Below are positions 11,857 through 60,388 of a stretch of DNA of 64,000 bases, one piece after another. Position numbers and translations under genes: made by a program. Each line of letters begins with the position of its first letter. Position 1 is the stretch's first letter. The stretch covers positions 1-64,000 of the forward strand of contig NZ_NFKI01000014.1 of the NCBI RefSeq assembly GCF_002160305.1, written 5' to 3'. The notes below the pieces were generated by a model. It did not search any database. It was not told the DNA's origin and saw only the letters and a program-made list of their open reading frames with translations. This DNA is from Pseudoflavonifractor sp. An184. Lineage in GTDB: Bacteria; Bacillota; Clostridia; Oscillospirales; Oscillospiraceae.

Positions 11857-13266
11857 ATGGAGGAGCATGCCCTGTCCCAGAGCGGGCCCGGCCTGCCGCC
11901 GGAGACCTGGAGGGAGCAGTTTGTTCAGGTGCTGACCCTGAGCGTGCCCGCCATTCTGGCGCAGATCAGCTCCATGGCCATGCAGTACATCGACGCGGCC
12001 ATGGTGGGCAGCCTGGGGGCCAGGGCCTCGGCCTCCATCGGCCTGGTGTCCACCTCCACCTGGCTGCTGGGGGGCATGTGCATCTCCCTGGCCACCGGCT
12101 TTTCCGTCCAGGTGGCCCATCTGATCGGAGCGAACCGGGAGGAGGAGGCCAGGGACGTGCTCCGGCAGGCCCTGCTGGCCGCGCTGGTGGTGGGAGCTCT
12201 GCTGTGCACGGTTGGAACCTCCATCAGCGGGGCGCTGCCCGCCTGGCTGGGGGGCGAGGCGGAGATTCTGGGGGACGCCTCCAGCTACTTTTTCATCTAC
12301 TCCTGCGCCCTTCCCGCGGTGCAGATGCGCCAGCTGTGCGGAAGCATGCTCCAGTGCAGCGGGGATATGCGCACCCCCAGCCTGCTCAACGCCCTCATGT
12401 GCGGGGAGGACGTGGTGTTCAACAGCCTGCTGATCTTCCCAGGCATCTCCATCCCCGGGACCGGGCTGTCCCTGCCGGGGGCGGGGCTGGGGGTGACAGG
12501 GGCCGCCCTGGGGACCGCCATGGCGGAGTGGGTCACCGCCCTTTTGATGCTGCTGACCGTCTGCCTGCGCGCCCCAAAGCTGCGCCTGACCCGGGAGCGG
12601 GGGCGCTGGCTGCCCACCGTCCGGTGCCTGCGCACCGCCGCCGGCATCTCCATCCCCATGGCCTTTGAGTATACGGTCATGTGCGGGGCGCAGATCGCCT
12701 CCACCCGGATCGTGGCCCCTCTGGGGACGGTGTCCATCGCCGCCAACTCCCTGGCGGTGACGGCGGAGAGCCTGTGCTATCTGCCCGGCTATGGGGTCGC
12801 GGCGGCGGCCACCACGCTGGTGGGACAGAGTCTGGGGGCGAAGCGGCGGGACCTGGCCCGGCGGTTTGCCCGGATGTGCGTGCTGCTGGCGGTGGCGCTG
12901 ATGACCCTCATGGGGGCCCTCATGTTCTGGTTTGCCCCGGCGGTGTTTGCCCTGCTCACCCCCGACCCGGCCGTCCGGACGCTAGGGGTGCAGGTGCTGC
13001 GCATCGAGGCCTTTGCAGAGCCCCTGTACGCGGTATCCATCGCCTCGGCCGGGGCCATGCGGGGGGCGGGGGACACCCTGGTGCCCAGCATCCTGAATCT
13101 GGTAAGCATGTGGGGGGTGCGGATCACCGCCGCCGCCCTGCTGGCCCCGCGCATCGGCCTGGCCGGGGTGTGGCTGGCCATGTGCGGCGAGCTGTGCTTC
13201 CGCGGGGTTCTCTTCCTGATCCGCCTGCTGCGGGAGCGCTGGCTGGACCGGAAGGTGTTTGGCTGA
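11857..13266 (+). CDS. MATE family multidrug/cation efflux protein
   Basis: 469 residues with about twelve membrane segments in two homologous halves. Each half shows the family pattern (first half: LSVPAILAQISSMAMQYIDA; second half: SIPMAFEYTVMCGAQ). It exports cationic or amphipathic compounds in exchange for Na+ or H+. A GGGAGGAG ribosome site precedes the ATG. It is a single-gene unit with its own promoter and a terminator hairpin 8 bases after the stop. Substrate not predictable. A second, different MATE gene lies at 21931-23337. Confidence 0.95.
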   Translation: MEEHALSQSGPGLPPETWREQFVQVLTLSVPAILAQISSMAMQYIDAAMVGSLGARASASIGLVSTSTWLLGGMCISLATGFSVQVAHLIGANREEEARDVLRQALLAALVVGALLCTVGTSISGALPAWLGGEAEILGDASSYFFIYSCALPAVQMRQLCGSMLQCSGDMRTPSLLNALMCGEDVVFNSLLIFPGISIPGTGLSLPGAGLGVTGAALGTAMAEWVTALLMLLTVCLRAPKLRLTRERGRWLPTVRCLRTAAGISIPMAFEYTVMCGAQIASTRIVAPLGTVSIAANSLAVTAESLCYLPGYGVAAAATTLVGQSLGAKRRDLARRFARMCVLLAVALMTLMGALMFWFAPAVFALLTPDPAVRTLGVQVLRIEAFAEPLYAVSIASAGAMRGAGDTLVPSILNLVSMWGVRITAAALLAPRIGLAGVWLAMCGELCFRGVLFLIRLLRERWLDRKVFG

Positions 13267-13273
13267 ACCAAAA

Positions 13274-13303
13274 AAGCGCTCTGGGCTTTTGCCCAGAGCG
13301 CTT
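13274..13303. terminator. Terminator hairpin, left copy
   Basis: AAGCGCTCTGGGC pairs with GCCCAGAGCGCTT around TTTT, with a run of A at its left. The same hairpin recurs at 13525-13551 on the far side of the repeat element. Each copy keeps the A- or T-run on its outer side only, as if one bidirectional terminator had been duplicated. Confidence 0.85.
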
Positions 13304-13308
13304 CAGTT

Positions 13309-13517
13309 TGTCGAAAACCTCTGTTTAGACGAATCCTCCCGAGTAATGGCGGGGGAGCTCGAGGGGGCGGCAGCCCGCCTCGAGTGGGATCAAATGCCCT
13401 GAATGCCTTGCTTGGAAAGGCGTTCAGCGAGCGCAGCGAGGACTTTTCCGCCGCGCAGCGGCGGGAAAGTAACGGCATTTTTCAGGCTGTCGGAAAAGTC
13501 CTTGGACTTTTTTGACA
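13309..13517 (+). repeat. Stem-loop array element, family A, copy 2 (complete)
   Basis: 209 bases. It starts TGTCGAAAACC and ends CTTTTTTGACA, so the two ends are inverted copies. Inside are stems at 13358-13384, 13399-13427 and 13442-13470, then the linker AACGGCATTTTT and a further stem (CAGGCTGTCGGAAAAGTCC with its complement) running to the right end. It matches the element at 1-122 and, with altered stems, the one at 60203-60388. It sits between convergent MATE and brnQ genes, bracketed by identical terminators. Confidence 0.8.
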
Positions 13518-13524
13518 GCCTGAG

Positions 13525-13556
13525 GCGCTCTGGGCTTTTTGCCCAGAGCGCTTTTT
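13525..13556 (+). terminator. Terminator hairpin, right copy
   Basis: GCGCTCTGGGC, TTTTT loop, GCCCAGAGCGC, then a T-run on the plus strand. The stem is identical to the one at 13274-13303. It lies 16 bases from the brnQ stop. Confidence 0.85.
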
Positions 13557-13571
13557 CACTGTGTGGTGAGA

Positions 13572-14843
13572 TCAGGGGGCGTCCTTCCCAACCGGTTTGG
13601 AGAGGAGGGCGCCGATCACCCCGCCCACCGCGGCGGGGATGAGCCAGCCGAAGCCGTAGTCATAGAAGGGGAGGAGCTCCACGAGGGGGAACAGGTCCAG
13701 GTAGTCGTGGAAGGTGAGCACCAGAGCGGTCAGGGTGGCCCCCAGGGCCGCCCCCTTGTAGAGGCCGGCGCGGGAGATCCAGTTCTGGAAGGCCAGCAGC
13801 ACCACCGTGGTCATGAAGGGGGGACAGATCACCGACAGCACCGGGTTGGCGATGTTGATGATGGTGGACAGGCCCAGGTTGCAGATGGCGCAGCCGATGA
13901 CCGCCAGCAGGAAGATGCCGGCGCGGTAGGAGAGGCGGCCTTTGGTCATCTCCTCAAAGTAGGAGGCGGTGGCGCCGAAGAGGCCGATGGCGGTGGTGAG
14001 GCAGGCCAGGGTGACCACAATGGCCAGAATCACCACTCCGGCCTGACCCAGCAGCTCCTTGGTGATGGCCACAATGAGGGCGGCCTGGTCCAGACCGTCC
14101 CCAAAGGCGGTGCTGGTGGTGGCGCCCAGGAAGGTGAGCCCCCCGTATACCACGGCCAGAAGCAGGGCGGCCACGCCGGTGGAGCCGGCCACCTGGGGGC
14201 GCTGCTCCTTCCAGGTTTTCAGGCCGGACTGGACCATGGAGTCCTGAATGATAATGGCGAAGCCGGCCACCGACAGAATGTCCATGGCCTGATAGCCGGC
14301 CAGCAGTCCCTCCTGGGCGATGTTGGGAGAGGCGGCCGGGCCGATGGGGCCGATGGGATTGGCAATGCCCACCACGATCAGGATCAGAATTCCGGTGATG
14401 AGCACCGGGGTGAGGCACTTGCCGATGATGTCCACCAGGCGGCTGGGGCGGATGGTCAGGAGGACCACCACCACAAAGAATAAAATGGAGAAGGGGAACA
14501 GTCCCAGCCCGTCAAACAGGGGGCGGACGGCCATCTCATAGGTGGTGGCCGCCGTGCGGGGCGGGGCGATGAACACGCCGGTACAGAGGATGGCGGCGGT
14601 GTTCAGAATAACCCCCGGCTTGGCGCCGACGGATTTGTTCATGGCCTGAACGCTGCCCCCGCCGTGGATGGCGGCATAGATGCCCACGCAGGAGAGAACC
14701 TCTACCAGGAAGAAGCAGAGAAAGCCGATGCCCCAGTCCTCTCCGCCTGATTTTCCCAGAAAAGGCGGGAAAATCAGATTCCCGGCCCCGAAAAACATGG
14801 CGAACAAGGCAAAGCCGGAGACAAAGAACTGTCGTGTCCGCAT
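13572..14843 (-). CDS. brnQ: Branched-chain amino acid carrier BrnQ (LIVCS family)
   Basis: 423 residues with about twelve membrane helices. The family start FFVSGFALFAMFFGAGNLIF (residues 6-25) is clear, as is the PPRTAATTYEM segment. It imports leucine, isoleucine and valine with Na+ or H+. AGGAGG lies 7 bases before the ATG. A GC-rich hairpin in the leader (14857-14878) ends directly at this ribosome site, so leader structure may tune translation. It has its own promoter and converges with the MATE gene. Confidence 0.96.
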   Translation of the reverse strand: MRTRQFFVSGFALFAMFFGAGNLIFPPFLGKSGGEDWGIGFLCFFLVEVLSCVGIYAAIHGGGSVQAMNKSVGAKPGVILNTAAILCTGVFIAPPRTAATTYEMAVRPLFDGLGLFPFSILFFVVVVLLTIRPSRLVDIIGKCLTPVLITGILILIVVGIANPIGPIGPAASPNIAQEGLLAGYQAMDILSVAGFAIIIQDSMVQSGLKTWKEQRPQVAGSTGVAALLLAVVYGGLTFLGATTSTAFGDGLDQAALIVAITKELLGQAGVVILAIVVTLACLTTAIGLFGATASYFEEMTKGRLSYRAGIFLLAVIGCAICNLGLSTIINIANPVLSVICPPFMTTVVLLAFQNWISRAGLYKGAALGATLTALVLTFHDYLDLFPLVELLPFYDYGFGWLIPAAVGGVIGALLSKPVGKDAP

Positions 14844-21649: not shown

Positions 21650-21681
21650 GAGCGCGGAGAGGCTATCGCCTCTCCGCGCTC
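21650..21681. terminator. Terminator hairpin, left copy
   Basis: GAGCGCGGAGAGGC, TATC loop, GCCTCTCCGCGCTC, 6 bases after the stop codon. The same hairpin recurs at 21881-21918 beyond the repeat element. Confidence 0.8.
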
Positions 21682-21685
21682 AGAC

Positions 21686-21879
21686 TGTCGAAAAAGTGGC
21701 AAAGCCACTTTTTCGAATAGGGCTGCACGAAATTTCAACCTCGATTTCTTGCGAAATTGTCGGTCAAAATTTCGTGAGAGGTGTCATTTCCGAGGCACAT
21801 GTCCTCGAAAATGACGAGATTTGATCTTATTCCGTCGTCTGCGGACGACGGAACTCCTTGCAGGAGGGCTTTTTTGACA
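21686..21879 (+). repeat. Stem-loop array element between duplicated terminators (family D)
   Basis: 194 bases starting TGTCGAAAAAG and ending CTTTTTTGACA, the same inverted ends as the family A element at 13.3 kb. The interior is different: successive stems GAAAAAGTGGC/GCCACTTTTTC, CGAAATTT.../AAATTTCG, GTCATTTCCGAGG/CCTCGAAAATGAC, CCGTCGTC/GACGACGG and CTCCTTGCAGGAG. No coding capacity. It sits between convergent genes. Confidence 0.75.
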
Positions 21880-21880
21880 A

Positions 21881-21918
21881 GCAGAGCGCGGAGAGGCTAT
21901 TGCCTCTCCGCGCTCTGC
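21881..21918. terminator. Terminator hairpin, right copy
   Basis: GCAGAGCGCGGAGAGGC, TATT loop, then its complement. It differs from the copy at 21650 only in the loop and in an extended stem. It lies 12 bases from the MATE stop. Confidence 0.8.
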
Positions 21919-60190: not shown

Positions 60191-60202
60191 CCGCGCCAGC
60201 AT

Positions 60203-60388
60203 CTCAAAAACCCTGTGCGGAACAAAATCCGTCTGGATCTGGGCGGGGGAGCTCGAGGGGGCGGCAGCCCGCCTCGAATGGGATCAAATGCCCCGGGCGC
60301 CTTGCACAGCAAGGCGCCCGGCAAGCGAAGCGCGGACTTTTGCGCCGCTGTGCGGCGTAAAAGTAACGGCATTTTTGCACATATTGAC
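60203..60388 (+). repeat. Stem-loop array element, family A, copy 3
   Basis: Shares GGCGGGGGAGCTCGAGGGGG and its partner CCGCCTCGA, then GGGATCAAATGCCC, with the copies at 1-122 and 13309-13517. The second stem is changed to CCGGGCGCCTT/AAGGCGCCCGG and the third to ACTTTTGCGCCG/CGGCGTAAAAGT, pairing kept. It ends AACGGCATTTTTGCAC. The inverted ends are degraded and no flanking duplication is seen. Confidence 0.78.

Follow-up and report, generated by a model that had tools for sequence, protein, structure and literature searches.

Target duplications made by transposons normally have a fixed number of base pairs, which is set by the geometry of the transposase, and within the IS1182 family ISfinder holds a wide range of duplication lengths. 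Hairpin targeting is described for a staphylococcal member of this family, IS1272/TnSha1. According to the available excerpts of PMC4923244, it is found in hairpins, several of which are confirmed terminators, with partial deletion and no duplication. Its targeting follows no primary sequence consensus, and insertion occurs at the stem (PMC4923244 and PMC5678879, both in excerpt). Figure 13 of PMC5678879, in the part available, draws a pathway a, replacement of the stem-loop, which is proposed for IS1272, and a pathway b, a hypothetical branch in which the whole stem-loop is duplicated. The same excerpts cite a review for palindrome targeting by some IS1182 members, without detail, and the excerpted text of PMC3196728 gives a 4-bp direct repeat for ISCaa15.

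Here we describe a 219-nt element lying between two copies of one terminator hairpin. In our assessment it is very probably a miniature inverted-repeat element (MITE) moved by IS1182-group transposases whose own elements end in CAG...TGTC, with the whole stem-loop target duplicated.

The element and its bracketing hairpins in the window

The window is a stretch of 64,000 nt from the draft genome of the gut bacterium Pseudoflavonifractor sp. An184 (G000; 3.59 Mb, 162 contigs). The site under study reads MATE gene (11857-13266, plus strand), 30-nt hairpin, 219-nt element, 31-nt hairpin, brnQ gene (13572-14843, minus strand). Both gene names are putative and were read from translated ORFs, and the gene limits are ORF-based calls rather than annotation; by these calls the stop codons of MATE and brnQ are 7 and 18 nt away from the hairpins. 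The features of this site are listed below, together with those of another bracketed element found in the window.

13270..13275, unstranded: A-run (A6), brnQ terminator tail for the minus strand, found only outside the left hairpin; terminator-like on the minus strand, with 0.9 expected by chance
13274..13303, unstranded: left terminator hairpin, the 30-nt left copy of the target-site duplication, from sequence and flank comparison
13304..13522, plus strand: family A element, miniature inverted-repeat, 219 nt, CAG...CTG, with limits from the junction comparison of many copies
13304..13318, plus strand: left terminal inverted repeat CAGTTTGTCGAAAAC; the common family form, CAGCTTGTCGAAAAA, is common to IS1182-type ISs of the same genus
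13482..13523, unstranded: near-palindrome of 42 nt forming the right end of the element, with 20-nt arms that are 90% complementary, from sequence
13508..13522, minus strand: right terminal inverted repeat, CAGGCTGTCAAAAAA on the minus strand, from sequence
13523..13553, unstranded: right terminator hairpin, the 31-nt right copy of the duplication, from sequence and flank comparison
13552..13556, plus strand: T-run (T5), MATE terminator tail, found only outside the right hairpin
21651..21680, unstranded: left hairpin of the second bracketed element, from flank comparison
21681..21884, plus strand: second-family element, 204 nt, with the same type of ends and another interior, from flank comparison
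21885..21914, unstranded: right hairpin copy of the second element, with one loop difference, from flank comparison

The earlier note on this DNA had described two terminators with an identical stem, an A-run to the left only and a T-run to the right only, and all of this is borne out by the sequence. The stem arms are formed by GCGCTCTGGGC at 13276-13286/13291-13301 in the left hairpin and 13525-13535/13541-13551 in the right, and these 11-nt arms match exactly; the loops are unlike by one T (TTTT left, TTTTT right) and the feet by one base (AAGCGC vs AGGCGC). All four exact matches to GCGCTCTGGGC in the window fall in the two hairpins, with 0.09 expected. We call the hairpins terminators because of their position, stem and tails and not because of a simple consensus terminator scan, which flagged the left hairpin alone in a stretch where 0.9 chance sites are expected. 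A promoter scan of the same stretch found none, and an Rfam search gave 7 matches at E up to 1, every one under its gathering score.

The element had been given as 209 bases in length, which the junctions correct to 219. It is too short to encode a transposase. It has the properties of a MITE, being short, non-coding and present in many copies, with a target-site duplication on both sides and terminal inverted repeats, which are imperfect (CAGTTTGTCGAAAAC / CAGGCTGTCAAAAAA), and its predicted folding is strong (z -7.8). As had also been proposed, the hairpin is specific to the locus and the element is found elsewhere: at least 63 aligned pieces of family A occur in its own genome among the best 40 of 149 candidates scored, so that our sample favours copies with better scores and is no complete census. 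With at most 2 mismatches allowed, the 15-nt end pattern was matched 144 times, and its reversed control 15 times. The element at 21651-21914 sits between convergent ORFs and stands for another MITE family, one that behaves in the same way. Positions 60197-60377 of the window hold a diverged, right-cut family A copy that ends at GGCATTTTTG and has no obvious flanking hairpins, and at 1-128 the contig start falls inside a family A copy, as do the starts or ends of several other contigs in the assembly (L087-L098).

Hairpins at other copies and at empty sites

Flanks were compared at 60 loci, made up of 58 of 59 extracted stretches (the one left out holds an IS at contig C130) and the two window loci. 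At 22 of these there was no end pair, the element being cut by a contig end or truncated, which left 38 elements with both ends. A duplicated stem-loop abutting both ends (score of at least 13) was found in 32 of the 38; three of the other six scored 5-8 and three scored 0 (a contig end, a match on one side, or ends paired wrongly). Among shuffled left/right pairings (n=1838), 0.6% reached a score of 10 and the largest score was 24. The hairpin sequence varies between loci and matches within a locus. The 32 copies answer the genome-wide search for locus-specific duplicated hairpins proposed in the earlier note and, together with four single-hairpin empty sites, uphold its idea that terminators are the target and that the hairpin is duplicated in full. 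That most copies have hairpins abutting their ends would also be seen if the hairpins were outer terminal modules of the element and travelled with it, a reading that is extremely improbable given that their sequences are locus-specific, that the two at one locus match, and that the hairpin of the locus is present at empty sites, where four clean ones contradict it.

The shape of the duplication was studied in 76 cases scoring at least 13, comprising 60 MITEs (G000 and its relatives G010 and G030) and 16 ISs (G007 and G011); orthologous sites of the three relatives are counted separately among them and are not independent. Duplication length runs from 16 to 40 nt with a median of 29, and 74 of the 76 lie within 21-40, the other two being shorter calls. 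The duplication is centred exactly on the best hairpin in 56 and is 1 nt off in 17 (73/76 within 1 nt). A hairpin score of at least 8 was reached by 79% of the 76 duplications vs 0.26% of 5000 random 30-mers. Outside the duplications the mean A content is 0.46 on the left and the mean T content 0.54 on the right (T background 0.19; n=76), and an A-run or T-run (at least 4 of 6 bases) stands on one side in 48 of the 76, with no clear run in 28.

These lengths bear on a different reading, in which a staggered cut of fixed length with a target preference for palindrome centres yields duplications of about 25-35 bp. Lengths do cluster at about 25-34 nt, and a symmetric target preference would also centre duplications on palindromes. 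When the GC-bounded span of the hairpin was measured separately, its correlation with duplication length was moderate overall (Spearman 0.56, 75 sites), which this reading can accommodate. Against it, the lengths range over 21-40 nt (apart from the two shorter calls) and correlate with hairpin span; DDE elements usually hold their duplication length to within 1-2 nt. Length equals the GC-bounded span within -2 to +6 nt at 57 of the 75 sites, and within these the correlation rises to 0.87 in a subset selected by that very fit; over all 75 sites the standard deviation of the length-span difference (5.7) exceeds that of the lengths (4.6). Because the all-site correlation is just 0.56 and 5.7 exceeds 4.6, the argument that structure sets the length is carried by the 57 well-fitting sites. 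Overall we consider a fixed stagger unlikely.

Under whole stem-loop duplication, the transposase would select a stem-loop in the DNA, in most cases an intrinsic terminator that closely follows a stop codon, and the 3' ends of the element would be joined to the two 5' feet of the extruded stem-loop, one per strand. Gap repair would then copy the entire stem-loop, so that the length of the duplication would come from the hairpin and not from a fixed stagger, and a complete terminator would be left to both neighbouring genes. The cruciform and 5'-foot chemistry is what we infer from these junctions, and termination is probably preserved at both neighbours. Genomic context was taken, by ORF-based calls, from 18 MITEs in the window and in the stretches of G010, of which one overlaps an ORF and two lie at edges. 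The 15 that could be assigned are in convergent (8), tandem (7) and divergent (0) gaps, compared with 83, 202 and 75 among 360 background gaps; each of the 15 has a gene ending at it, with a median stop-to-hairpin distance of 13 nt and one site at 169.

To look for empty sites, each of the 60 bracketed MITEs was compared with sequence retrieved from the other two of the genomes G000, G010 and G030; 22 pairings were occupied (split) and 7 were spanned. At L017 a gap-free alignment of 769 bp (96.6%) runs across one hairpin in G010, as does a gap-free alignment of 781 bp (95.1%) at L044, and the G010 empty sites of L019 (85.6%) and L025 (94.9%, gapped) have one hairpin each. None of these four clean empty sites has two hairpins. 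L020 was rejected as an empty site, G010 carrying an element fragment there in the opposite orientation. Two of the spanned pairings match the window site with L050, the only empty relative of the window locus, where a single hairpin is followed by TCAGTTTG, which resembles the first bases of the element. We did not accept it as a clean empty site; the extra bases may be an element remnant, and L050 is ambiguous and may be a deletion product. At four other loci the empty site thus has one hairpin, as expected, and at the window's own locus the picture is ambiguous. Genes 97-100% identical to MATE, its nearest relatives, come from Pseudoflavonifractor capillosus An827 (L076, L079) and from a bin (L050). 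Both An827 (L076) and G010 carry the element at the window site, and in both the right loop is inverted, AAAAA for TTTTT.

Terminators serving both strands are common between convergent genes, and two terminators, or a local duplication, could have come first with the element or a repair event later filling the gap between them. We regard this order of events as extremely doubtful: each of the four clean empty sites has a single hairpin rather than two, and the signature is common to IS and MITE copies.

IS1182-type elements with the same behaviour

Among genomes of the same genus, G007 has 36 matches to IS1182-family transposases and G011 has 16, and the corresponding ISs are 1.5-1.6 kb long with CAG...TGTC ends of the MITE kind. 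The IS1182 model NF033551 (cut-off 270) scored 395 bits in G007, 396 bits in G011 and 298 bits for a partial match in G010, all above the cut-off; for ISs with CAG or GAG ends and the duplication signature it gives 385-396 bits in the window's family and 468-482 elsewhere in the phylum. At L118 the left end of the IS, CAGCTTGTCGAAAAA, agrees with the common MITE form at all 15 nt, and the right end of this IS is one base off the common MITE form and two off the right end of the window element. The IS1182 copy in the window's own genome (L108, G000:C130:57249-58595) was rejected as a partner, since it has GTCTGTTGACAAAGT-type ends and a 7-bp duplication.

We fetched 44 IS loci from G007 and G011, of which 34 had both ends. 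Each of 20 was found to have a whole-hairpin duplication of its own; by eye, most of the remaining 14 stand between two hairpins that are not alike. Among the 28 flanks of these 14 ISs, 10 match a flank of another copy, while cross-genome flank comparisons gave 0 of 1512 as a control. Four partner-hairpin pairs join copies that both lack their own duplication (L274/L286, L275/L286, L281/L282 and L119/L140), as expected if the ISs recombined with each other; two further flank matches involve ISs with their own duplication and are less clear.

In G010 one IS1182-type IS is represented by 14 left ends, of which 13 are identical over the 74-77 nt that could be read. At least 9 of these left ends lie at contig ends, and the assembly contains no full copy of the IS. 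Because the ends are identical, its insertion there would be recent. A hairpin abuts 16 of its 17 distinct flanks (14 left, 3 right), and three left/right end pairs have identical hairpins of 30, 31 and 33 nt. The lone flank without a hairpin (L297) adjoins a MITE cut at its GGCATTTTT. The sequences outside one of these three pairs correspond to site L036, arranged in G000 as hairpin-MITE-hairpin, and judging from contig-end adjacency G010 would read hairpin-IS-hairpin-MITE-hairpin at this site, with three hairpins. The sequences themselves show whole-hairpin duplication, its centring on the hairpin, the single hairpin at four empty sites and an identical signature on transposase-encoding ISs. 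No match to a CAG-ended IS1182 element was found in the draft genomes G000 and G030, and it is therefore from shared ends, a shared target type and one shared site that the MITE appears to be mobilised by the CAG-ended IS1182 group.

A survey of the phylum covered 37 IS1182 loci picked from the better matches. Six have their own whole-hairpin duplication (L106, L215, L216, L217, L218 and L229), all except L106 in other genera, and the ends of all six are CAG or GAG. At L110, L219 and L221 there is a hairpin on the left and the right side is not readable; L105, L119 and L246 have unlike hairpins, and L245 has a hairpin on one side. IS1182 loci with other ends have duplications of 7 bp (L107, L108), 9 bp (L224, L228), shorter, or none. 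L240 (G178:C8), an IS1182-type IS with a repeated palindromic unit on both flanks, scores 12, just below the threshold of 13, in repeated surroundings; we presume that the unit resembles a CRISPR repeat.

This distribution also bears on whether a nuclease or replication event at cruciforms makes the duplication, with the element merely filling hairpin breaks. Palindromes are fragile, and inverted loops at some loci show that hairpins are processed. However, the six duplicating loci among the 37 are all CAG- or GAG-ended, and loci with other ends have short duplications (7 or 9 bp at four) or none. The restriction of the duplication to CAG/GAG ends points to the transposase and makes an origin in hairpin breakage quite improbable. 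On a tree the 9 labelled duplicating rows cluster (4 changes; shuffled mean 8.2; 0/500 as low) in more than one group. We make no claim that duplication marks a single IS1182 clade, several changes being needed and labels being incomplete (L219, L221, L245, L246).

Taking transposase-directed duplication to the level of the phylum, we think it probable that a widespread IS1182-type group in Bacillota reads the structure of its target rather than its sequence or length. It would join to the 5' feet on both strands and duplicate one stem-loop, so that terminators would be filled, neighbours would stay terminated and each insertion would provide a new target.

Fate of inserted copies and comparison with known systems

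Among the 76 left/right hairpin pairs there are 35 identical ones, 36 with differences and 5 with an indel. In four of the differing pairs each copy is nearer to the reverse complement of the other (inverted loops); loops that are reverse-complementary between matching stems were seen at L019, L028, L153, L181, L229 and L136 (the last two by eye). Stem changes are fully compensated in 3 pairs and keep pairing after a one-sided change in 13, and they break pairing in one copy in 20 (19 one-sided, 1 two-sided). Continued selection on both hairpins finds no support here, stem changes breaking pairing (20) about as often as they keep it (16). Right-cut copies make up 27 of 122 element matches, and 14 of the 27 are cut at position 178-179 (GGCATTTTT). 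By eye they keep the left hairpin, except L160, and L039 ends at a contig end; examples in which the right end is lost are L031, L035, L038, L040 and L194. They likely arose by deletion between T-runs, possibly across palindromes.

In different relatives the element lies in opposite orientations at one and the same terminator, as in L157 (G030) vs L043 (G000) and L192 (G010) and in L195 vs L020, which could reflect either inversion through the palindromic hairpins or independent insertions. Tandem family A copies occur at L015 and L183, with the same hairpin before, between and (L183) after them, a pattern best read as repeated insertion into an already duplicated hairpin. Nested insertion, inversion and recombination between ISs would in this way find sites in the duplicated terminators, and the whole process would offer a route to high copy number at gene ends with termination probably spared.

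Like the bacterial MITEs described in the available excerpts of PMC10969869, the element is short and geneless, with terminal inverted repeats, target duplication, many intergenic copies and strong folding. Unlike them, it duplicates an entire terminator hairpin, whose length varies, a kind of target that those excerpts do not describe. In the open-licence literature, as far as the excerpts reach, whole-terminator duplication by a transposon was found in the hypothetical pathway of PMC5678879 and nowhere else, and we make no claim of its absence from print. The statement in the earlier note that no described element behaves in this manner holds in part: IS1272 does target terminator stem-loops and, in the excerpts of PMC4923244 and PMC5678879, replaces them. 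The probable IS1182-type partner goes beyond that note.

The junctions described here provide natural evidence for the branch that was drawn just hypothetically for IS1272. The duplicated unit is a folded structure, and the extrusion of hairpins or cruciforms at terminators in vivo thereby becomes testable from insertion junctions. The IS1182 members with other ends surveyed here differ from the CAG/GAG group in having 7-bp, 9-bp or no clear duplications. Both IS1272 and the elements studied here (through their probable partner ISs) involve an IS1182-family transposase and a stem-loop or terminator target. In IS1272 the stem-loop is deleted or replaced and no duplication is made, whereas here we see no replacement and the stem-loop is kept twice. 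IS1272 and the CAG-ended group look like two outcomes of one targeting mode.
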